Below, piece by piece: positions 36,808 to 62,793 of a stretch of 64,000 bases of DNA (positions are counted from its first letter, which is position 1; every line of letters starts with the position of its first letter). This DNA is from Daphnia pulex (lineage: Eukaryota > Arthropoda > Branchiopoda > Diplostraca > Daphniidae). Both the position numbers and the translations under genes were made by a program. The DNA is taken from the NCBI RefSeq assembly GCF_021134715.1, contig NC_060025.1:2914001-2978000 (forward strand), given 5' to 3'. A model generated the notes under the pieces. That model had not been told where the DNA came from, made no database searches, and was given only the letters and a program-made list of their open reading frames with translations.

Positions 36808-37610
36808 TTAATATTTAGAGTAGGCTGCTGGGGCTTTGTATGAGGGGGCAGCGACGTAAGAAGTTTTAGGCTTGTAGGCCGGGGCGGTGTAAGCGGGAGC
36901 AGAGTAAGCGGGGGCCTTGTAGACTGGGGCAGAGTAGACGGGGGCAACGTAGGCGGGGGCTTTGTATTCAGGGGCCTTGTAGGCTGGGGCAGAGTAAGCC
37001 GGAGCGGGGTAGGAAGCAGCCTTGTATTGCTTCTCGACGTACTCGGGGTATTTGGCCTCTCCTTCGTATTTCACATCGGCGGTGTATCCGTCCTTATCGG
37101 CCTTGTAGGTGACGATTTGGGTGCGGCCGTCGGGGAGAGCGACGCGGTAAACTCCGGTGACGACGTTGTAGTCGGATTTCTCAGAGTGGAGGAAATCGTT
37201 GTAGGATTCCTTATCCTGGACGTCGTATTCGAAGCTGTACGGCTGTGGGGCCTGTCAAAAATCCAATTGGAAATGTTTAGTCGATCCTAGAAATGATTTG
37301 ATCCTATTCAGACTCACATAAGTTACTTCCTCGTATTTAGCTTCGTATTTGGGTGCGTACGCCGGGGTCTAAACATTGAATCGAATCAAAATTTTAGTCG
37401 AAATTTCTTTCAAGTTATGACGATTTAATTAAGACTCACGTAAGTGGCTTTCTCGTATTTAGGAGCCTCGTACTTGGGGGCGTAGTCAGCGGCGGCAGCG
37501 ACAGCGACGAGGGCAGCGATGATGAAGAACTGAAATTTTGAATTAAAAAAGAAATTAATTCCAAATTTTAAATTAATAATTATCAAATCTTTTAAGTCAC
37601 TCACCTTCAT
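36808..37610 (-). CDS. RR cuticle protein with an extra exon, 196 aa (inverted partner)
   Basis: Four exons in transcript order: 37610-37605 (Met-Lys), 37529-37440, 37368-37318 and 37251-36808, all phase 0. Exon 2 gives the signal peptide FFIIAALVAVAAAAD and KYEAPKYEKATY. The extra exon 3 (17 codons, TPAYAPKYEAKYEEVTY) matches the end of exon 2 of the gene at 27749. The RR domain (about 50-117) reads QPYSFEYDVQDKESYNDFL and VVTGVYRVALPDGRTQIV; GSYR is changed to GVYR. The tail begins YVEKQYKAASYPAPAYSAP and ends AAYSKY. Introns 2 and 3 are identical to those of the divergent gene at 38592. The TATA box (- strand) is at 37679-37685. Confidence 0.92.
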
Positions 37611-38517
37611 ATTGGAGTGGTAGTGGAGTGCTAGAAACAGTTGGAAGACTGATGCTTTCCAACGAGATTTGCCAATGATTTTATACCCAATTTGACAGGG
37701 ATGACAACACGCGAGGAGGCGGGGGCTTCACGATTTTTACGACGTTTAGTGAAAGTAATTTATTCAGCTAATATCAGACAACTCTAGCGAAATGTACAGG
37801 AGAACTAACAACTTGATTAATGAGGTTAATCAAAAGATTATGGCTCTCTACGCTTTTTGGATCGATATAACATCCACCCATTTCGGACATTAGATATGCA
37901 TGAAATTCCACATTCGTGTTGGTCTCGATAGGACTCGATAGCCTGAGATATGATGGCATTTCAGTACCGGTATCAACTGGTATATACGTATACACTGTGA
38001 ATGTGCCAAATCATTGCACTTATTAAACCCTATGGCTCATACAAGAAGTATAAACTGGTCCTGGCCAGCGAGGGGAAAGGTAGCCGAAGCAAAAAATGCT
38101 GCTCGCCTTATACGGTCGAACTAAATATCATAGTTTGAAACTACTTTCATTGTGTGTACTAGAATTTTCCCCGACAGTTGTTTTGTACCGAGGCAAAGGC
38201 GCGTCAGGAATTATCTAAAAGAGAAGGGTCAACCCGAGAGACAAGATAACCAGCCCCAATTGCTGGCAACTGTAACACGTGAAGTTATTTAGAGAAATAA
38301 GGACTTTGACCTTTTGTCTCCCCCTTTGGTGCATAGGATTTTTTGCTACCTCCATTTGATCCCAAGTTATAGGTGCAATAGACGGCAACTAGGTTTGCTG
38401 AACTGCTTACATTCACCGAGATACAACAACGATGGTCAATCGCTTTCGCTCGATATTAAACTATACCCTGGAAAAAAGAGGCGCCTCCCACACGTTTGCA
38501 TCGCATAGCAGCGGCGA
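37611..38517. other. Divergent promoter region between the inverted pair
   Basis: The two head-to-head RR genes share about 980 bp between start codons. TATA boxes lie at 37679-37685 (-) and 38518 (+). Unlike the gene bodies, the spacer shows no obvious mirror symmetry. No gene is supported inside it. Confidence 0.5.
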
Positions 38518-38591
38518 TATAAAACAGTCGGAGGATTGGCATTAAAGTATCAGTCCATCAACTGTTCTAGCCAAATCACAACAACTCCAAC

Positions 38592-39500
38592 ATGAAGGTA
38601 ACCATCTCAGTGATAACTTCGCTAACTTGAGTGGACCACATCATCAACTAATCTCAATATTATTAACTTTATTTCATTCCAGTTCTTCATCATCGCTGCC
38701 CTCGTCGCCGTCGCTGCCGCCGCTGACTACGCCCCCAAGTACGAGGCTCCTAAATACGAGAAAGCCACTTACGTGAGTCTTAATTAAATCGTCATAACTT
38801 GAAAGAAATTTCGACTAAAATTTTGATTCGATTCAATGTTTAGACCCCGGCGTACGCACCCAAATACGAAGCTAAATACGAGGAAGTAACTTATGTGAGT
38901 CTGAATAGGATCAAATCATTTCTAGGATCGACTAAACATTTCCAATTGGATTTTTGACAGGCCCCACAGCCGTACAGCTTCGAATACGACGTCCAAGATA
39001 AGGAATCCTACAACGATTTCCTCCACTCTGAGAAATCCGACTACAACGTCGTCACCGGAGTTTACCGCGTCGCTCTCCCCGATGGCCGCACCCAGATCGT
39101 CACCTACAAGGCCGATAAGGACGGATACAACGCCGATGTGAAATACGAAGGAGAGGCCAAATACCCCGAGTACGTCGAGAAGCAATACAAGGCTGCTTCC
39201 TACCCCGCTCCGGCTTACTCTGCCCCAGCCTACAAGGCCCCTGAATACAAAGCCCCCGCTTACACTGCCCCAGCCTACAAAGCCCCAGCCTACACCGCTC
39301 CAGCCTACAAGGCCCCAGCATACAAGGCCCCTGAATACAAAGCCCCAGCCTACGTTGCTCCCGTCTACTCTGCCCCAGCCTACAAGGCCCCCGAGTACAA
39401 AGCCCCCGCTCCCGCCTACACCGCCCCCCTCTACAGAGCTCCAGCTTACCCCGCCGCTCCATCATACAGAGCCCCCGCTGTTGCCTACCCCAAATACTAA
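38592..39500 (+). CDS. RR cuticle protein with an extra exon, 228 aa (inverted partner)
   Basis: Exons 38592-38597, 38683-38772, 38844-38894 and 38961-39500. Protein order is as in the 36.8-kb gene: signal peptide FFIIAALVAVAAAAD, the 17-codon extra exon, then the RR domain (about 50-117) with the same GVYR change, and a YVEKQYKAASYPAPAYSAP tail start. The tail is longer, with repeated AYKAPEYKAPAYTAP units, and ends AYPKY. Introns 2 (71 bp) and 3 (66 bp) are identical to the partner's, and exon 2 differs at one base by eye. Intron 1 differs fully, so the shared tract starts at exon 2. TATAAAAC at 38518, TCAGT near 38550. AATAAA follows at about 39543. Confidence 0.93.
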
Positions 39501-40980
39501 ATTATTTGAAATGTTATTTGCCAATAAGCCATATTAAAAATATAAATAAAGAATGTGATTCGTATTGATTCAACGTCACGAGTGTTAAATTCATCAAGTA
39601 TCTAGCGCACAAAAAAATATTAAACATATTCATGCTACATCTTTTCCGAAATGTGGTTAAAAGTGTGTGAAACTCTTTTCACCATAGTTATTTATTTCCA
39701 CCCACATTTGCGTACGCCCAATTTTGAGCCGCAAATCTCGCTAGAGGTATGCAAGTCTAGACCGAACCCATTTGTTCCGCTAACTTTCAAATGTCGTATT
39801 AGATTACTGGATCGCAAAATCTCTGCCCTGACCGAATAGCGATCGTAAAAAAAAAAGAGATTTCAAAATCGGTCAATGCCGATATTTACTTCGATGCAAT
39901 CAACCTTACGCACAACTTTTCACCTGTCCCTTCTTAACAAACACTTTACTGCCACAATGTTCTACATTTCGTCCTTATAAGCGCAGCCATAAGATACACT
40001 AGATAAAAAAAAACGACATTACTTCAAAGTGGCAGATATAAAGGAATATGTAAACCCCTAAGTGTGCACAGCAAAAAATACTGGAGGTGCATACCAACGG
40101 CACTTATCCGAGGAAAAAAAAACTAACCGACATTATTTTCCAGTGCGTGTAATTTCTACCGGCATTTTAAAAAAAAAACGCCCCATATCTGTTGGCATTC
40201 AAAGAATTACGAAATCGCCTTCAAGGCCATTCTAAAAGAAACGTGATAGAAAATTTTGATTTTCACGTGCCGCACCCGGGGGCAGAAATACGAGAAACAA
40301 TACACCGTAGTCTAATATACTAGAGTTGTCTCGAGTTGTCTGACACGACAATTCTACTGTAGCCTTACTAACTGGGTACTGGCTATTTCACTAACACGAT
40401 TACAACGGTAGAAATAATTGGGTATCCTATATTATCTTGTTGTTTCTAGCGTATAACAACCCAGTTTGCCTGGACGACGGTATACGAGTTTTGGAACATG
40501 TTTGCTTTCGGTTTTTGATATTGTAGTCAAACATTAACAAGCATTACTAAATTTCTACACATGGTCGACTATATTAACGATCTCCTGCCCATCGCCAATT
40601 AATTGGAACACTTTTTCCGGGTTTCAGCAACAAGCGCTAAACGAGAAAAATAAGGCGAAAAAGATTTGTAAGCACGGCCATATGCTGACGGGAAAAAGAT
40701 GTGTAGATGAATATAATTTGCTGGTGACCGCGGAGCGTCCGGAGGCATTCCGTAGTTTAATGTTGCCGCACTTTTGCTTCTCAAAAATCATTTGGGAGAA
40801 GCTCCGCCCTTGTGGACTTGAACTAAATAAAAAGATGAATTTTCAAAAGTATTCCTTTCTATAGGTAACCCTGTTCTTTACTCACCTCATTATTGGCCTT
40901 CTTCTTCGTTCACTTTCACTCGGATTGCAACCATAATTGAGTTGAACACCTCCTACACTATGCACTACTGTCACGTCTCC
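39501..40980. other. 1.5-kb spacer with promoter motifs at its right end
   Basis: No gene is supported. ACTTGAACTAAAT (40816-40828) and GTTCACTTTCACTCGG (40908-40923) are the shared promoter motifs of the next RR gene. The frame at 40682-40864 covers the first motif and is probably not coding. Confidence 0.45.
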
Positions 40981-41054
40981 TATAAAACGGACCGACTTGT
41001 CTGCGAAAGGTATCAGTTCTGCAACTGTCTCAAAAAACACACCTCCACTCCAAC

Positions 41055-41690
41055 ATGAAGGTAAAAAAGAAATTCCAACAACTCAGTTTCATCATAATCA
41101 AAATTTTTGCTTTTCAAATGTTACAGTTCATCATCCTCGCCGCCCTCGTCGCCGTCGCAGCTGCTGCTGACTACGCTCCCAAGTACGAAGCCCCCAAGTA
41201 CGAGGCTCCTAAATACGAAGCCAAATATGAGGCTCCTAAATACGAAGCCCCCAAGTACGAAGCTCCCAAATACGAAGCTAAATACGAGGAAGTCACCTAT
41301 GTAAGTCTCATTCAGAAAAATGGAAATTGAAATCTGAATGTCATCTCTTGAATCCTCACATTTTAACAGGCTCCCCAGCCCTACAGCTTCGGATATGACG
41401 TCCAGGATAAGGAATCTTACAACGACTTTGAGCACAACGAGAAATCCGACTACAACGTCGTCATCGGATCTTACCGCGTCGCTCTCCCCGATGGCCGCAC
41501 CCAGATCGTCAACTACAAAGCCGATAAGGACGGATACACCGCCGATGTCAAGTTCGAAGGAGAGGCCAAATACCCCGAGGAGCCCGCATACAAGCCCGCT
41601 TACTCTGCCCCAGCCTACTCTGCCCCGGCTTACCCCGCTCCCGCTTACCCCGCACCCGCCTACAAGGCCCCCGCCTACCCCAAATACTAA
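41055..41690 (+). CDS. RR cuticle protein (pro-resilin-like), 166 aa
   Basis: Exons 41055-41060, 41127-41300 and 41370-41690. Exon 2 is longer than usual (58 codons): signal peptide FIILAALVAVAAAAD, then about seven KYEAP units ending EEVTY. The RR domain (about 61-128) reads QPYSFGYDVQDKESYNDFE and NVVIGSYRVALPDGRTQIV; Thr before GSYR is replaced by Ile. The tail ends KAPAYPKY. Exon 3 is almost the same DNA as that of the gene at 25818. TATAAAAC at 40981, TCAGTT at 41013. Confidence 0.93.
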
Positions 41691-42520
41691 GATCCCAAAT
41701 CCTCTATCCAAATTTCTTTTAGCTTAATTTATTGACTTTTGAAACGATGATTTGAATGTTGGTGAAATTCAAGATGTGTTAAAACGGCAATACCATCATG
41801 GCCGTGCTTTATGCATTTTAATTCTGAAAGAATGTAAATACAAACATTAGTACAGAAAAAAAAACAGTTCAGTTTTTCGAAACGTTTCTCTTATTTTTAA
41901 ATTATTATAAATTTGAAATGATTATCCAAGTGATTATCCATTACTGGTAGCAAAATAAGGAAAGATATTGAAAAGCAACAAATAGAAATGTGTGAATAGA
42001 TGAAAGTACTGCTGTTTGCAAATTGCGATACGCGGTGAACCTGAACGACTGTTTCATAAATAGGGCCGTCTTTATATAAAGAATTGTTGCACCAAATCAA
42101 ATCGTTGGATTGATTGCACATCATCATTTATTTCGAAATAAAATTGATTGGAAAACTGAAATGTCGATAAATCTGCATTAAAGTCCAACATTAACAGTTT
42201 ACAATTTTACGGATCTTTTTCCGCTTTATTACCTCAGGGTAAGATCGTCTGTAAATTCATTATTTTACTTCAATTATGTCATGAAATTGAATATGTGCAA
42301 TGGAAGAACGGTTACTGGCTGAATGTATGAATGAGAAATAAAAAGTCATCCATTCATAAGATTAAAGCGGGTTGCGCTTTTAGGCTAGAGCTAGCCTATA
42401 GTCTACAGAATTCACCCAGAACTGAACTTGAATTACATACACGTAGGAGGTGAATAAAAAGTAGACCGCTCCGTATGACCCCGTTCTTTTATCTCCGCTA
42501 CAACATCCTTTTTCTTCATT
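41691..42520. other. Spacer related to the tandem-unit spacers
   Basis: No gene is supported. The stretch at about 41768-41840 (TCAAGATGTGTTAAAACGGC and following) matches parts of the spacers near 44035, 45832 and 47575. ACTTGAATTACAT lies at 42426-42438. Confidence 0.5.
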
Positions 42521-42660
42521 CCCTTTCACTCGGAATGTGACCAAAATTGAATAGTGAACCACACCTCGACCACAGACTGAGCTGAGGTTCACTGTCAAGT
42601 TTTCTGCTATAAAAACGACCAATGCTTCCACAAACGCTATCAGTTCTTCAGCTGTCTTCG
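42521..42660 (+). promoter_or_regulatory. Tandem-unit promoter block 1
   Basis: In order: CCCTTTCACTCGGAATGTGA (42521-42540), a CCACACCTCGACCACAG stretch, GAGGTTCACTGTCAAG, TATAAAAAC at 42608 and TCAGTT at 42640. The same order recurs before the next three genes. The TATA to TCAGTT distance is 32 bp. Confidence 0.75.
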
Positions 42661-42679
42661 ATAAACACACAACTCCAAC

Positions 42680-43273
42680 ATGAAGGTAAAAAGGCACAAC
42701 AACTTGTGGATTACTCTGTCAACATTCGTCGAAAACTGTCTTATCTCGCTAAAATCAAAATTGTTTTCAAATTTTACAGTTCATCATCCTCGCCGCTCTC
42801 GTCGCCGTCGCAGCTGCTGCTGACTACGCTCCCAAGTACGAAGCACCCAAGTACGAGGCTCCTAAATACGAAGCCAAATACGAGGAAGTCACCTATGTAA
42901 GTCTCATTCAGAAAAATGGAAATTGAAACCTGAATGTCATCTGTTGAATTATCACATTTTGCAACAGGCCCCTCAGCCATACAGCTTCGGATACGATGTC
43001 CAAGATAAGGAATCTTACAACGACTTCGAGCACAACGAGAAGTCCGACTACAACGTCGTCACCGGATCTTACCGCGTCGCTCTCCCCGATGGCCGCACCC
43101 AAATCGTCACATACAAGGCCGATAAGAACGGATACACCGCCGATGTCAAGTTCGAAGGAGAGGCCAAATACCCTGAGGAGCCCGCATACAAGCCCGCTTA
43201 CTCTGCCCCAGCCTACTCTGCCCCAGCTTACCCCGCTCCCGCTTACCCCGCACCAGCCTACCCTAAATACTAG
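42680..43273 (+). CDS. RR cuticle protein, tandem unit 1, 142 aa
   Basis: Exons 42680-42685, 42780-42896 and 42968-43273. Signal peptide FIILAALVAVAAAAD, then three KYEAP units and EEVTY. The RR domain (about 42-109) reads QPYSFGYDVQDKESYNDFE, NVVTGSYRVALPDGRTQIV and DVKFEGEAKYPEEPAYKPA. The tail is short and ends AYPKY. It differs from units 2-4 after the RR domain: it keeps KNGYTADVKFEGEAKYPEE, where the others have AYGYTADVKYEGEAKYPEY plus VEKQYKAAS. The tail is therefore of the 25.8/41.1-kb type while the promoter and introns are of the tandem-unit type. Confidence 0.93.
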
Positions 43274-44240
43274 AAATCCAGTGACTGTATGCCTAATTTA
43301 TTAATTCTTCGAAAATGGTTTGAATGTTAATAATTGATGAAGATGCTCCGTGATAGCGATATCATTGTGTCGTCAAAAGTTATTAATAGTCTACTGTAAA
43401 TAAAATCTTTTACACGATCACCGTCCTTTTAATTTTGTGAATTTACATAAGAACAAGAACGCACACTCCTTCAAAACTTATGCAACTGTTACCCAACTAC
43501 GATCCGATTTCATTTAGTTAGAACACGAGATTTTGGAGATTGGTTTTTATTTGTAATACATGACGGTTGCAAGAGTGTGTAAAAGTGCAATCAAACAGGA
43601 TTGTAAACCCAAAAGCAGGTAACCACACCTTGGGATAAGTTTCAACAAACTCAAATCGTTATTTAGATTTTATTTGTGAAAAAATGAAATAAGTTTTCCT
43701 TCTTTCGCTTGAATACGTTACTTACGGCCCAACGTAGTAAAGATCAACAAATCATAGTGTATTTCGCGTTCGTTAATTAATACTTCAAATAATATCTAGG
43801 TCACATATGAAAAATACACTAGTATAAATTACCTTATTGGCTTATTGCAAGTCTACTCAATCTCAAAAGTAAAAACAAGTCACTAATAAAATAGTGGCCA
43901 TTGTAATAAATCATTGATGATAACATGTTTACCAATTAAATTGTGGCGGTTATCAGTGAATTGATCACTATAATGAAGTCATTTTTAATGAAATAGTGAA
44001 GCAAAAAATTGTAATACTGTTAATTCCTGGTTAATTCAAGATAGTATTAAAACTGCCATACTACCATCATGGTCGTGCTATGCGTATTAATTCTGAATAA
44101 ATGTAATTCATAAAGTCTAACGACTTAACCCAGAATTGAACTTGAATTGCATGTGTAATTTTGAAAAGTAGATCGTTCATATTACCCTGTTCTTCGATCG
44201 CCGTTATAGTATCCCTTTTTCTCCATATATTCTGATGTAT
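43274..44240. other. Tandem-unit spacer 1
   Basis: Non-coding but conserved with the other unit spacers. It holds poly-A signals (about 43396), ACCACACCTTGGGA (43622-43635), an AT-rich segment with AATAAATCATTGATGA near 43906, and ACTTGAATTGCAT (44140-44152). Confidence 0.6.
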
Positions 44241-44372
44241 TCCCTTTCACTCGGAATGTAACCAAAATTGAAAAGCGAACCACACCTCGACCACAGACTT
44301 AGGTTCACTGTCAAGTTTGGTATAAAAACGAACAATGTTTCCACCAACGCTATCAGTTCTTCAGCTGTCTTC
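44241..44372 (+). promoter_or_regulatory. Tandem-unit promoter block 2
   Basis: TCCCTTTCACTCGGAATG at 44241, CCACACCTCGACCACAG, TATAAAAAC at 44321 and TCAGTT at 44353. Same order as block 1. Confidence 0.75.
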
Positions 44373-44392
44373 AATAAAAACACAACTCCAAC

Positions 44393-45028
44393 ATGAAGGT
44401 AAAAAGGCACAACATCCTGTGGATTACTCTTTCAGCATTAGTCGAAAATTGTACCAACTCTTTACAATCCAAATTGTTTTCAAATATCACAGTTCATCAT
44501 CCTCGCCGCTCTCGTCGCCGTCGCAGCTGCTGCTGACTACGCTCCCAAGTACGAAGCACCCAAGTACGAGGCTCCTAAATACGAAGCCAAATACGAGGAA
44601 GTCACATATGTAAGTTGCATTTTTAAAAATGGCAATTTAGACCTGATGAACACCATCTGTTGAATTATCTCATTTTGCAACAGGCCCCTCAGCCATACAG
44701 CTTCGGATACGACGTCCAGGATAAGGAATCATACAACGACTTCGAGCACAACGAGAAATCCGACTACAACGTCGTCACCGGATCTTACCGCGTCGCTCTC
44801 CCCGACGGCCGCACCCAGATCGTCACCTACAAGGCCGACGCTTACGGATACACCGCCGATGTGAAATACGAAGGAGAGGCCAAGTACCCCGAGTACGTCG
44901 AGAAGCAATACAAGGCTGCTTCCTACCCCGCTCCGGCTTACTCTGCCCCAGCCTACTCTGCCCCAGCTTACCCCGCTCCCGCTTACCCCGCTCCCGCCTA
45001 CAAGGCCCCCGCCTACCCTAAATACTAG
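44393..45028 (+). CDS. RR cuticle protein, tandem unit 2, 155 aa
   Basis: Exons 44393-44398, 44493-44609 and 44684-45028. Signal peptide and KYEAP linker are as in unit 1. The RR domain (about 42-109) ends ADAYGYTADVKYEGEAKYP, then the VEKQYKAASYPAPAYSAP segment also found in the inverted pair at 36.8/38.6 kb. The tail has one KAP unit more than unit 3 and ends YPKY. Exon 3 looks like a mosaic: RR start of the unit 1 type, tail of the inverted-pair type. Confidence 0.93.
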
Positions 45029-46050
45029 AAATCCACTGACTGCTGAGTGACTGGATGCATAATTTATTAATTATTAAAAATGGTTTGAATGTTAATAATT
45101 GGTGAAGATATTCTGTGATAGTGATATCATTGTGTCGTCAAAAGTTATTAATAGCTTATTGTAAATAAAATCTTTGACACGATCACCATCCTTTTCATTT
45201 TGTGAATTTACATAAGAACTAAGAGTGGACACTCGTTCAAAACTTATGTAACCGTTACCCAGCTATGATCCGATTTCATTTTCGTTCGAACACGAGAATT
45301 CGGAGATTGGCTTTTTATTTGTACATAGTGCTGGTTAATTGCAAGAGTGTGTAAAAGTGCAATCAAACAGGATTGTACACCCAAAAGCAGGGGACCACAC
45401 CTTGGGAAAAGGTTTATTAACAAACTCATATCGTTATTTAGACTAGATTTGGTAACAAAATGAAATAAGTTTCCTCCTTTCGCTTAAATACAGTTACTTA
45501 CGGCCCAATGTAATAACGAATAATGTAATAACGGCAATAATAACAAATCATAATGTATTTCGTGATCGTTAATTAATACTTAAAATAATATCTAGGTCAA
45601 ATATGGAAAAGACACTAGTACTAAAAATTACACTATTGCACGGCACGTCTACTCATTCTCACAAGTCAATTCAAGTCATTCTAATAAAATATTGGTAATT
45701 GTAATAAATCATTGATGACTACCAGTACATGTTTAGCAATTAAATTATGACGGTTATCAGTGAATTGATCACTATATTAAAGTCATTTTTAAGAAAATAG
45801 TGAAGCAAAAAAATAAAATATCGTTAATTCAAGAATGGTGTTAAAACGGCAATAGGACCATACTGGTCGAGCTAAATGCAGATTAATTCTAAAAGAATGT
45901 AAGTCCTTAAATCTAACGACTTAACCCAGAATTGAACTTGAATTGCATACATGTAATATTGAAAAGTAGATCGTTCCATATTACCCTGTTCTTTAATCGC
46001 CGCTACAATATCCCCTTTTCCGCCCTTTTCTCCATATATTCCGAAATATT
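45029..46050. other. Tandem-unit spacer 2
   Basis: No gene. Conserved spacer with ACCACACCTTGGGA (45394-45407), AATAAATCATTGATGA near 45700 and ACTTGAATTGCAT (45936-45948). Confidence 0.6.
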
Positions 46051-46184
46051 CCCTTTCACTCGGAATGTGACCAAAATTGAATAGCGAACCACACCTCAAC
46101 CACAGACTGAGGTTCACTGTCAAGTTTGCTGGTATAAAAACGTACATTGCTTCCACAAACGCTATCAGTTCTTCAGCTGTCTTC
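46051..46184 (+). promoter_or_regulatory. Tandem-unit promoter block 3
   Basis: CCCTTTCACTCGGAATGTGA at 46051, CCACACCTCAACCACAG, TATAAAAAC at 46133 and TCAGTT at 46165. Confidence 0.75.
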
Positions 46185-46204
46185 AATAAACACACAACTC
46201 CAAC

Positions 46205-46805
46205 ATGAAGGTAAAAAAGAACAACATCCTGTGGATTACTCTTTCAACATTCGTTGAAAACTTTCTCATTTCGTTACAATGAAATTTTGTTTTCAAATAT
46301 TACAGTTCATCATCCTTGCCGCCCTTGTCGCCGTCGCAGCTGCTGACTACGCTCCCAAATACGAAGCACCCAAGTACGAGGCTCCCAAATACGAAGCCAA
46401 ATACGAGGAAGTCACCTATGTAAGTCTCATTAAAAAAAATGGAAATTGACACCTGAATGTCATCTATTGAATTATCACATTTTGCAACAGGCCCCTCAGC
46501 CATACAGCTTCGGATACGACGTCCAAGATAAGGAATCATACAACGACTTCGAGCACAACGAGAAATCCGACTACAACGTCGTCACTGGATCTTACCGCGT
46601 CGCTCTCCCCGACGGCCGCACCCAGATCGTCACCTACAAGGCCGACGCTTACGGATACACAGCTGATGTGAAATACGAAGGAGAGGCCAAGTACCCCGAG
46701 TACGTCGAGAAGCAATACAAGGCCGCCTCCTACCCCGCTCCGGCTTACTCTGCCCCAGCCTACTCTGCCCCAGCTTACCCCGCTCCCGCCTACCCCAAAT
46801 ACTAA
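46205..46805 (+). CDS. RR cuticle protein, tandem unit 3, 144 aa
   Basis: Exons 46205-46210, 46306-46419 and 46491-46805. Exon 2 is one codon shorter than in units 1, 2 and 4 (one Ala fewer in the VAVAAAD signal peptide). The RR domain (about 41-108) has SYNDFEHNEKSDYNVVTGS and the AYGYTADVKYEGEAKYPEY end. The tail begins VEKQYKAASYPAPAYSAP and ends YPKY. Confidence 0.93.
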
Positions 46806-47800
46806 AAATCCACTGACTGGATGCCTTATTTATTGATTCTTAAAAAATGATTTGAATGTCAATAATTGATAAAGATTTACTGTGATAGCGATATCATTAT
46901 GTCATCAAAAGTGATTAATATGGCTTACTTAAATAAAATACTTTACACGATTATCTGTCCTTTTTATTTTTTTTAAACTTATATACGAACAAGAGTTGAC
47001 ACTCGTTCAAAATTTAGGTAACCGCTCCCCCACTATGATCTGATTTAATTTAACTAGAACATGAGATTTTAGAGATTGGCTTTTACATTGTCCATAATGG
47101 TCTCACAAACTGGCGTGTGTAAAAGTAAAATCAAACGGGATTTTAAAAGCAGGTGACCACACCTTGGGATAAGGTTTATTAACAAACTCACAGAGTTATT
47201 TACCTTATATTTGGAAAAAAAATGAAGTGAGTTTTCCCCATTTTGCTAAAATACGTTTACTTACGGCCAGCAGTAGTTAATATAACAAACCATAACGTAT
47301 TTCACGATCCTTTATGAATAATAATTTAAAAAAATATCTGGGTCAAATATTGAAGAGACGCTAGTCATTCACCTTAATTTAAGTCTACTTACTCCCATAA
47401 GACAAGAAAGTCTTTAGAAAACATAATGGCAATTGTAATAAATCATGGATGATTACATATTGATCAATGAAACGATTACGGTTATCAATGAATTCATCAA
47501 TATGTATTACATTCATTTGTAAGGAAATAGTGAAGCAAACAAAACAAATAAATGAAAAAAATATGCCATGAATTCAAGATAGGCTATGATCTAAGACGAC
47601 AATAGAACCATAATTGCTGTGCTAAGGGCCTATCCATATTAATTCTGAAAAAAAATGTAAGTGCTGTAGCCTGTAAGTACATACTTTAATTGACCAGAAT
47701 TAAACTGGATTGAATATATTAGAGGGCGACTAAAAGGTAGATAATTCCATATGACCCTTTTCTTAAAACGCCGCTGTACAATTTCCTTTTTCTCCATATA
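46806..47800. other. Tandem-unit spacer 3
   Basis: No gene. ACCACACCTTGGGA at 47156-47169. The distal TTGAA motif is degraded here (AAACTGGATTGAAT near 47703). Confidence 0.6.
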
Positions 47801-47935
47801 CCCTTTCACTCGGAAAGTGATGACCAAAATTAAATAGAGAACCACGCCTCGACCACAGAGTGAGGTTCACTGTCAAAATTGGTATAAAAACGACCACTGT
47901 TTCCACAAACGCTATCAGTTCTTCAGCTGTCTTCA
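47801..47935 (+). promoter_or_regulatory. Tandem-unit promoter block 4
   Basis: CCCTTTCACTCGGAAAGTGA at 47801, CCACGCCTCGACCACAG, TATAAAAAC at 47883 and TCAGTT at 47915. Confidence 0.75.
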
Positions 47936-47954
47936 ATAAACACACAACTCCAAC

Positions 47955-48546
47955 ATGAAGGTAAAAAAGGCACAACATCTTTTGGATTGGCCTCTCAACA
48001 TTCCTCAAAAATTGTCCCAACTCTTTACAATCCAAGTTGTTTTCAAATATCACAGTTCATCATCCTCGCCGCTCTCGTCGCCGTCGCAGCTGCTGCTGAC
48101 TACGCTCCCAAGTACGAAGCACCCAAGTACGAGGCTCCCAAATACGAAGCCAAATACGAGGAAGTCACCTATGTAAGTCTCATTCATAAGAATGGAAATT
48201 GAAACCTGATGAATGTCATCTATTGAATTATCACATTTTCCAACAGGCCCCTCAGCCATACAGCTTCGGATACGACGTCCAAGATAAGGAATCCTACAAT
48301 GACTTTGAGCACAACGAGAAGTCCGACTACAACGTCGTCACTGGATCTTACCGCGTCGCCCTACCCGATGGCCGCACCCAGATCGTCACCTACAAGGCCG
48401 ACGCTTACGGATACACAGCTGATGTGAAATACGAAGGAGAGGCCAAGTACCCCGAGTACGTCGAGAAGCAATACAAGGCTGCTTCCTACCCCGCTCCGGC
48501 TTACTCTGCCCCAGCTTACCCCGCTCCCGCCTACCCCAAATACTAA
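47955..48546 (+). CDS. RR cuticle protein, tandem unit 4, 140 aa
   Basis: Exons 47955-47960, 48056-48172 and 48247-48546. Signal peptide FIILAALVAVAAAAD, linker with three KYEAP units. The RR domain spans about 42-109 and matches units 2 and 3. The tail is the shortest of the array (SYPAPAYSAPAYPAPAYPKY). Intron 1 keeps the TTTACAATCCAA and CAAATATCACAG blocks of unit 2, so units 2 and 4 are closest there. Confidence 0.93.
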
Positions 48547-60031: not shown

Positions 60032-60129
60032 TATAAATAACCGAGTCCACCGTCACCACCATCAACAGTTTTGTCAACGAGTAAGACACAGTCGGATCAA
60101 ACTCACCAAAGTTCTCCCTTCCTCAACAC
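60032..60129 (+). promoter_or_regulatory. Core promoter and 5' leader of the last RR gene, cut off by an insertion
   Basis: TATAAATA at 60032-60039, a TCAAC start-site candidate at 60062 and a CT/CA-rich leader running to 60129. Beyond the inserted element the leader resumes at 62296, seven bases before the first ATG. Without the element, TATA to ATG would be about 105 bp, close to the 72-110 bp of the neighbours. Confidence 0.65.
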
Positions 60130-60328
60130 TGTTGATATAGAAATTAACACGTGAACCTGTTTGCTGCAAAGAACGCTTTGTATTGCTACTCGCCTAGCCA
60201 CAATCGTCAACAGCACTGAGTCCCCCTCTCTTATTCCTTTGTCTGGGTAGGTCCTTCTCCCCCTCTCTTCTTTCCTGGCTATCCTGCGTTGCCGCACTGT
60301 CCAGTTTGTTTATCTTTTATACTCAACA
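60130..60328 (-). repeat. 3' LTR of the copia-type element
   Basis: 199 bp, identical by eye to the other LTR at 62092-62290. It begins TGTTGATATAG and ends ACTCAACA on the + strand. On the element's own strand a TATAAAAG lies near its start. Confidence 0.92.
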
Positions 60329-61378
60329 CCTCCCCTCAAACTGGACCCCCAAAAATAAACATGAGCACAGAATACACAGCATATTTGAATCAGACATAAA
60401 TACTAGGTTCAGTGTCACAAGACAAATAATAAGAAAAGAAATATCAGCCTCCTTTAACTCTTCAGTTACACCTCCCCTACACCCCGAACGCCAATCTTGT
60501 CACGGAGATACTTGAAGCGTGGAGCAGCCAGGGGTTTCGTGAGTGCATCGGCCAGTTGCTCCTGGGAGCTTACATAGTTTATCATCTCTTCTGTCATGTC
60601 GATCGTAACGCTTCCTTTTTCTGTCCGCTTCTTCTCCTTCTCTCTCACGCCGGCGTTTGTATTGACGGCATTGAGCTCTAACATGCGTAGTGGAGTTGCA
60701 CTCCCAGCATGTTCTCGGTATACCAGCATGTTGACTGGAAGGGTGGCTTTTTCCTTTGTTCTGACCGTACTGGGCAGGAAGTGCTTGCTCTTTGTGCTGT
60801 GATTCATCTCTGTTCGGCTTACTGAGATAGGCAGTATCAGATGTCGATTTTGCTTCTTCGTCGTTGCGCAGGCTCTTGTCCAATGCTATAAGGCGAGTAG
60901 TCAGTTTCTTGAGAGTTTTCTCTGCAACAGGCGTGCTGTCCCATGCAAAGGCAAAAACACGGAACTCTGGAGGAAGCGACATGAGTATCTTTGCCATTAT
61001 TTGATTATCATCAATAGCTATGTTGAGGCTCTTCAGACGGAATGCTATCTGTTCCAACTCAGTCAGGAAGCTTGATACACTTTGGCTTGGTCGAAATGTG
61101 CATCCATAGAACTTTGTCCACAATAGAGGTGCATTGTCTGCGGCATCTTCTTCATACTCAGTCTCCAATTTCATCCACATCTCTTGGGCTGTGCTACAAG
61201 ACATCAGGATCCTTGATTGGTCTTCTTTGATGGCGCCAAATATGTTCTGCATTGCCGTGGTATTTCTCTTGTTCCAGTTGGTTATATCAGCTGCATTTTC
61301 AATCACCTGGTCAGCATTGCGTCTCTGATTGTGGTAACAAAACGAGAAGATGGTTAGGTTTGTGATATCCATGGCAGC

Positions 61379-61535
61379 CTCACATTATCTCAATGTGGAA
61401 TCTCCCTCACATCATCTCGATGTGGAATACCTCTCACATTATCTCAATGTGGAATCTCCCTCACATCATCTCGATGTGGAATACCTCTCACATTATCTCA
61501 ATGTGGAATCTCCCTCACATCATCTCGATGTGGAA
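61379..61535. repeat. 27-bp tandem repeat with small palindromes, inside the element
   Basis: Six units alternating between CACATTATCTCAATGTG and CACATCATCTCGATGTG cores, so the higher-order period is 54 bp. Each core can pair CACAT with ATGTG around a 7-base loop. Confidence 0.9.
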
Positions 61536-62091
61536 AAACACTCAGCTGTCTCCTAGATGCTTGCAACTCTAGCACACACTTGTCCACCATCATATGATGG
61601 AATTTAGCCAGAGTGACCAAACAGATTGAGAAAGAAACACAAAAAAAGAGAAATGTCCAGCAAACACAAACACACAAAAAACAAAATCAAGTGGCAGAGA
61701 TTAAGCACTCACGCCGGGATCTAAGTTTGTCAATTTAATAGTTGGTACCACGCCACAGATAGGCATCTCATATCGCGTTGTTGTCAGGCACGGATCACAC
61801 ACATAAAGAAAACAATAAATCATCAATAAACTTACTTCAGCAGGTTGCCGTTGAGTCCCGTTCACGACTTCCCAAAGCTCAACACTTTGTAACGCCAGCT
61901 TCATTCCAAATTTCCAAGACGCGTAGTTTTTCCCATTCAGACACCATACAACATGGCGGCGGCCATCTTTCTCCATCACTCCAGAAAAGAATTTCTAATT
62001 TCTTGGGAACAGTTAGCCGGGGACACACACAAAAAAAATAATTGTTCAGACAGAGTAGCTGTTAGCTGTGCGTACAGCTGGGCCCATAACC

Positions 62092-62290
62092 TGTTGATAT
62101 AGAAATTAACACGTGAACCTGTTTGCTGCAAAGAACGCTTTGTATTGCTACTCGCCTAGCCACAATCGTCAACAGCACTGAGTCCCCCTCTCTTATTCCT
62201 TTGTCTGGGTAGGTCCTTCTCCCCCTCTCTTCTTTCCTGGCTATCCTGCGTTGCCGCACTGTCCAGTTTGTTTATCTTTTATACTCAACA
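62092..62290 (-). repeat. 5' LTR of the copia-type element
   Basis: 199 bp, identical by eye to the copy at 60130-60328. It ends five bases of duplicated target plus seven further bases before the start codon of the next RR gene. Confidence 0.92.
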
Positions 62291-62302
62291 AACACAACAG
62301 CC

Positions 62303-62793
62303 ATGATGAAGGTAAGAAAATCCCATGTTGAAAATTGAATTTCACAGTAACTAAAACGTTGATTTTAATTTTGAATCGACTGATGTTGAGCAGTTCTTGA
62401 TTTTCGCCACTCTGATCGCCGTTGCCATGGCCGGTTACGAGCCTGCCGCCAAGGCTGTTGAGGAGGCTGCTCCAGCTGAACCCGTATTTAAACTTGAACA
62501 ACTTTGATCCCGAACCGTATACAGCAAATTCCTACTCATTTATTCATTAGGCCCCTCAGCCGTACAGCTTCGGCTACGGCGTAAAGGACGAAGAGACCTA
62601 CAACGATTTTGATCACGCTGAGAACGCTGATGGCGAAGTCGTCACTGGATCTTACCGCGTCGCTCTCCCCGATGGCCGCACTCAGATCGTCACCTACCGA
62701 GCTGACAAAAACGGATACACCGCTGACGTGAAATACGAGGGAGAGGCCCAATATCCCGAGTACGTCGAACCTGCGCTCAAAACCACATATTAA
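62303..62793 (+). CDS. RR cuticle protein with an insertion in its 5' leader, 113 aa
   Basis: Exons 62303-62311, 62394-62483 and 62551-62793, all phase 0. Exon 1 codes Met-Met-Lys (or Met-Lys from 62306). Signal peptide FLIFATLIAVAMAGYE; the linker ends AEP, so the splice follows Pro instead of Tyr. The RR domain (about 34-101) reads QPYSFGYGVKDEETYNDFD, EVVTGSYRVALPDGRTQIV and DVKYEGEAQYPEYVE. It ends LKTTY with no repeat tail, making it the shortest RR protein here. The coding part is intact. Its TATA box lies 2.2 kb upstream because of the element at 60130-62290, so normal expression is doubtful unless the insert is tolerated or spliced out. Confidence 0.9.

Follow-up and report, generated by a model that had tools for sequence, protein, structure and literature searches.

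A pol-less, non-autonomous copia-type retrotransposon very probably inserted into the leader of a cuticle gene of Daphnia pulex very recently, during a burst that left at least 21 near-identical copies in the genome, and split the promoter of this gene from its ATG. The stretch of DNA analysed here, referred to as the window, comprises 64,000 nucleotides (C9:2914001-2978000). Coordinates are window positions unless a contig is named, and the genome searched comprised 133,188,837 bases in 13 contigs.

The whole element, a gag-only LTR retrotransposon of 2161 bp, occupies 60130-62290 on the minus strand and is flanked by the target site duplication (TSD) AACAC at 60125-60129 and 62291-62295 (plus strand). 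Along the minus strand its parts follow each other in the order LTR, primer binding site (PBS), gag, remnant of the pol end, polypurine tract (PPT) and LTR. The 5' LTR (62092-62290) points away from the cuticle gene. It is identical to the 3' LTR (60130-60328) at 199/199 bases, and both LTRs show TG...CA ends. These results bear out the initial annotation, which had described two identical 199-bp LTRs, AACAC on both flanks and a 2.16-kb element opposite to the gene between TATA (60032) and ATG (62303). The span given there, 60032-62311, runs from the TATA box to the end of exon 1 and has to be narrowed to 60130-62290 for the element itself. Immediately 3' of the 5' LTR lies the putative copia-type PBS GGTTATGGGCCCAGC (62077-62091, minus strand; half initiator tRNA-Met type), which would match the middle of initiator tRNA-Met; the 21-base PBS pattern occurs 25 times genome-wide. 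The purine-rich tract AGTTTGAGGGGAGG (60329-60342, minus strand) is found immediately 5' of the 3' LTR. Rfam and ARAGORN searches of the window gave no matches. Gag is read from the minus strand and is split into exon 1, which starts at its ATG (61836-61976; DUF4219 / Retrotran_gag_3), and exon 2 (60500-61324), which carries Retrotran_gag_2, presumably a CCHC knuckle, assigned by eye, and a tail that continues past the site of the pol deletion. The two exons are separated by a GT-AG intron of 511 bp (61325-61835) that harbors a minisatellite (61379-61535; period 54, or 2 x 27, 2.9 copies, 100% match).

Paired LTRs with TG...CA ends, a 5-bp TSD and a copia-type gag place the element with Ty1/copia. 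The pol arrangement of copia, with integrase before reverse transcriptase (RT), was not found, and neither RT nor integrase was matched by the three element frames run against Pfam. Because the LTRs, TSD and gag point to copia while pol is missing, we file the element as a non-autonomous derivative and not as an autonomous copia. The earlier label "copia-type" is appropriate for LTRs, TSD and gag, but this is not an ordinary copia; it belongs to an internally deleted, gag-only, intron-containing family. Compared with a longer relative on C10, homology in gag extends to about 60584 and resumes on the 3' side at about 60577, and the relative holds approximately 3.4 kb extra at this point, which places the deletion junction (60577-60584, minus strand) by match coordinates only. 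The remnant of the pol end (60476-60577, minus strand), which by its motif we take to be the RNase H end, shares 81-82% identity with the 3' parts of two longer relatives (C10:6665411-6665512 and C2:10597726-10597823). Internally deleted LTR elements are common, and the element could in principle be an ordinary copia copy, decayed and without a family of its own, whose pol was deleted in place once it had inserted. This reading is practically untenable and is refuted by the deletion junction, which is common to all 21 copies: the same deletion and the same sequence recur at separate sites, of which 20 have a TSD of their own, and all 21 copies run unbroken across the deletion site. The same is true for a more distant cousin on C3 (95% identity over 740 bp, 80% in the 3' part), whose own two LTRs show no substitutions and differ by the length of a G run and a 7-base gap. 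No stop codon interrupts gag exon 2 in 22/22 copies, in the cousin over 257/274 residues.

The recent insertion date that had been read from the LTR pair is upheld, and the youth of the element is much better shown by the 21 near-identical, dispersed copies than by the window LTR pair. With an internal query of 771 bases, all 24 candidates gave matches, 21 at 100%, one at 96% and two at 75% and 72%; 20 of the matches at 100% cover the full query and one starts from base 7. The 20 full copies are spread over 10 contigs with different flanks, each of them carries two exact LTRs (42/42 identical LTRs when the 21st copy is included), and perfect 5-bp TSDs were found for 19/20 as well as for the 21st copy, which is a spliced one (see below). 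When aligned, the full copies differ at four columns only, all within two T runs (element sense), and collapsing these runs reduces all 20 to one sequence without any substitution. Errors in the assembly may account for the T-run differences. A genome search with the first 30 LTR bases gave 42 exact matches, corresponding to 21 copies with two LTRs each, and 47 when up to three mismatches were allowed; the reversed pattern, used as a control, gave 0, which puts these counts far above chance. Since all 42 exact starts fall into the 21 paired copies, there is no exact solo LTR in the genome by this pattern. With about 44,871 bases, zero substitutions and an assumed star tree, the age of the burst is bounded at 95% by 6.7e-5 per site, which at mutation rates of 3.8e-9 to 1.0e-9 (from the excerpt of PMC11550904) corresponds to about 17,600-66,900 generations. 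The LTR pair of the window copy is a weaker clock and on its own bounds the age only to 2.0-7.5 million generations. This is an animal genome with a burst so recent that 20 full copies show no substitution.

It could be argued that the identity of the copies reflects an artefact of the assembly or gene conversion of recent date instead of a recent burst, since assemblers can place one repeat consensus at several sites and conversion can homogenise repeats. We regard this as very improbable, as the 20 full copies are distributed over 10 contigs between different flanks, 19 with TSDs of their own, their T-run lengths vary, and the C3 cousin was not homogenised.

Several individual loci deserve mention. 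The copy at C10:16065168-16067327 is the sole full copy of the 20 that lacks a TSD; ACCCTT is present on both sides, six bases off the element. At C1:4383197-4385357, a 306-codon frame is open across the joined flanks, although without a Pfam family in the frames tried, and the element may interrupt a coding exon there. Two diverged LTR starts at C8:4888977 (+) and C8:4908435 (-), each followed by a PBS, face each other about 19 kb apart and may stem from a related element that was duplicated in inverted orientation. We found no sign of an insertion preference near tRNA genes: ARAGORN, run on the 20 loci together with flanks of 3.5 kb, detected 0 tRNA genes. A preference for promoters was not supported either: a TATAWA-like site towards the element lies within 200 bp in 6/20 loci, a count obtained with a loose motif and without a control. 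Among ten flank frames, picked from the longer ones, one scored above the Pfam cut-off (XK-related).

The 21st copy reveals that the gag gene has a real intron, because it lacks exactly the 511 bp and thus represents an integrated copy of spliced RNA. This copy (C8:3685583-3687233) is 1651 bp long and has two identical LTRs and the TSD GTCAC. It is the same as the window copy apart from one T in a run and the loss of the 511 bases of window positions 61835-61325 (GTAAGT...CAATCAG), with zero ambiguity at the junction. The simplest reading is that a spliced RNA was reverse-transcribed and then integrated. The segment accordingly shows both the GT...AG ends of a spliceosomal intron and its exact loss in an RNA-derived copy, and its donor ranks in the top 0.56% of the 7,100 GT sites of the window (generic matrix). 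Splicing opens a gag frame of 321 codons, whereas translation of the unspliced sequence from the same ATG reaches a stop after 91 codons. Retrotran_gag_2 is matched nearly end to end by the spliced gag (E=1.9e-29) and in the window copy with E=1.3e-25. The C3 cousin has the 5' part of the intron, starting with GTGAGT (the piece read ends inside the intron), and in the C2 relative the two gag exons would lie about 245 bp apart, judged by match coordinates alone. A phrase search of the literature for an intron inside gag gave no match, and a paper retrieved on integrated copies of spliced RNA was, in its excerpt, not on point.

Where the Pol functions come from is a separate matter. The closest pol-bearing relative among the candidates scored, on C10, has 71% gag identity and three TAA codons within its RT match. 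The gags in listed frames of more than 1000 codons reach at most 34% identity, except for 40% over a single 75-residue stretch in a 1388-codon frame, and the distance from intact copias therefore depends on the stretch compared. No pol-bearing copy of the family was found among the best 150 of 280 RT candidates and the best 141 of 248 gag candidates, and among the latter there was no gag relative between 93% and 71% identity. A fragment at C4:8583338-8584276 has an 89% similar, partly repeated PBS region with an end resembling a PPT at a distance of 0.5-0.7 kb, and is possibly another short derivative. Pol must have some source, and a pol-bearing partner of the same family, missing from the assembly or segregating in other individuals, might drive the burst. 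Such a partner could reside in an assembly gap, among the remaining candidates or in other individuals, and may have been missed because the searches covered the best 150 of 280 and the best 141 of 248 candidates, respectively; moreover, three LTR-like starts on C8 with 1-3 mismatches are known by their start sequence only. On the other side stand the gap between 93% and 71% gag identity among the candidates scored and the fact that every one of the 42 exact LTR starts falls within one of the 21 short copies. We consider such a partner a sizeable, if minority, possibility. Judged from sequence, the missing Pol functions would rather be supplied by another copia element.

At the cuticle locus the plus-strand order is the TATA box TATAAATA (60032-60039), the insertion after 60129, AACAC, AACAGCC and the ATG at 62303, 7 bp past the downstream duplication. 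The insertion thus separates the promoter from the ATG of the gene. The TATA box lies 98 bp upstream of the insertion, and in the empty site the TATA-to-ATG distance is 105 nt by coordinate arithmetic (103 if counted from 60034). As had been noted, the coding exons are intact: the coding region (62303-62793, plus strand) was read by eye as three exons, and the product of the exons joined by eye matches Pfam Chitin_bind_4 with E=8.1e-15. The gene is of the RR type and sits in a cluster, with 13 matches to its main exon in the window, itself included, among the best 40 of 97 genome-wide candidates. Five RR cuticle exons at 37034-48464 (C9:2951034-2962464) score equally against the query exon (208 bits, 81%) and may be recent duplicates or homogenised copies. 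A leader plan common to the paralogues of the cluster was not recovered. Among 12 paralogous exons, a TATA-to-ATG spacing (75 nt) could be determined for a single gene (37253, minus strand; 35445 is the same site), and support for the cuticle promoter therefore comes from its own TATA box and not from paralogue comparison. A search with the 200-bp promoter and leader revealed no second copy at the sensitivity used, and neither the empty site nor the start of the LTR was matched in viral contigs.

Assuming transcription start at 60063, the filled leader is 2240 nt long with 27 upstream ATGs, compared to 74 nt and 0 in the empty site, and it contains poly(A)-like signals (AATAAA or ATTAAA) at 60354, 61814 and 61825. 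Since transcripts starting at the old promoter would include the 27 upstream ATGs and the three signals, a strong drop in cuticle protein output would be the most likely result. If active, the promoter of the element itself would run leftwards and oppose the cuticle transcript. The many RR paralogues could mask the effect of the insertion. The gene would keep working if splicing of the cuticle mRNA took the element out as a new intron of the 5' UTR, as the initial annotation had suggested. A candidate donor, CGA/GTAAGA at 60081 in the native leader, ranks in the top 4.8% of the 7,100 GT sites of the window, and an AG ends at 62300, two bases ahead of the ATG. However, this donor, although the best in the native leader, scores a mediocre 1.67 compared to 7.0 for intron 1 of the gene, no plus-strand donor inside the element scores above 5 (generic weights for all scores), and the pyrimidine tract before the AG is poor (10/20). 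Candidate splice sites are present, but we consider removal as an intron unlikely. A promoter cut off from its ATG, with output probably lowered, is the reading we continue with, and it is plausible that the insertion allele still varies between individuals. The insertion is a tangible candidate for an expression allele that segregates in a model crustacean, and it can be tested by PCR.

We propose that a burst placed at least 21 near-identical copies of this pol-less family in the genome. The family would retain LTRs, PBS, PPT and a gag that becomes readable as one frame only after the 511-bp intron is spliced. Unspliced RNA would be the source of 20/21 copies, while spliced RNA would have been copied and integrated once, with Pol functions coming from another copia element. 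One of these insertions would have placed 2.16 kb of antisense element between cuticle promoter and ATG. In a broader reading, in which we have not quite even confidence, this is an animal gag-only copia family that uses spliced RNA for Gag and unspliced RNA as its genome, as in retroviruses, and that has just expanded without a pol-bearing member of its own in the genome, with Pol borrowed from a distant copia. The single intronless insertion (1/21) would then record leakage from one RNA pool into the other, with the cuticle allele as a fresh by-product.

By analogy, the closest known system appears to be that of the TR-GAG elements, making the family a candidate parasitic LTR element with its own Gag. 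TR-GAG elements are terminal-repeat retrotransposons with a GAG domain that are non-autonomous and mobilised in trans by an autonomous element, which the 21 pol-less copies suggest for the D. pulex family as well; TRIMs have no gag frame. Like TR-GAG elements, the D. pulex family has an LTR pair, PBS, PPT and a gag frame without pol, and was amplified despite the missing pol. It differs in its animal host, in a gag that is split by an intron and continuous only after splicing, and in the one integrated spliced copy, while the TR-GAG literature found concerns plants. To our knowledge, gag-keeping, pol-less parasitic LTR elements are known from plants.

Drosophila copia has a 5-bp TSD like that of the D. 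pulex element, and its PBS would resemble the putative PBS found here. Drosophila copia likewise has a copia-type gag and makes a separate spliced gag RNA, but it splices out 2.9 kb of pol sequence (excerpt of PMC3735527), whereas in D. pulex the DNA itself is devoid of most of pol and the intron interrupts gag. The intact copia families of D. pulex belong to the same superfamily in the same species (Rho et al., 2010; PMC2996953). According to the excerpt of that study, most LTR elements end in TGT/ACA and carry TSDs of 4-6 bp, gag and pol domains were required, and the shortest copia measured 4064 bp. A gag-only family of 2161 bp would therefore have escaped that survey. For D. magna mutation lines, the excerpt of PMC8594854 lists gains or losses of Gypsy, Pao and DIRS and no Copia. 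TRIM elements (PMC4528315) are also among the closest known systems, and the D. pulex family differs from them in that it retains gag.

BARE1 and BARE2 of barley, as described in the excerpt of PMC3735527, are also members of the Copia group; splicing yields a gag-only RNA, unspliced RNA is packaged, and a defective subfamily is parasitic. BARE1 removes 104 nt just after gag, whereas the D. pulex intron lies inside gag, and BARE2 is unable to make Gag, whereas the D. pulex family has gag and no pol. In the same excerpt, the authors could not amplify DNA copies of the spliced gag RNA of BARE1. In contrast, one spliced copy has integrated in D. pulex, and this family thus offers natural evidence on the question of whether the spliced RNA of a retrotransposon can serve as template for an integrated copy.
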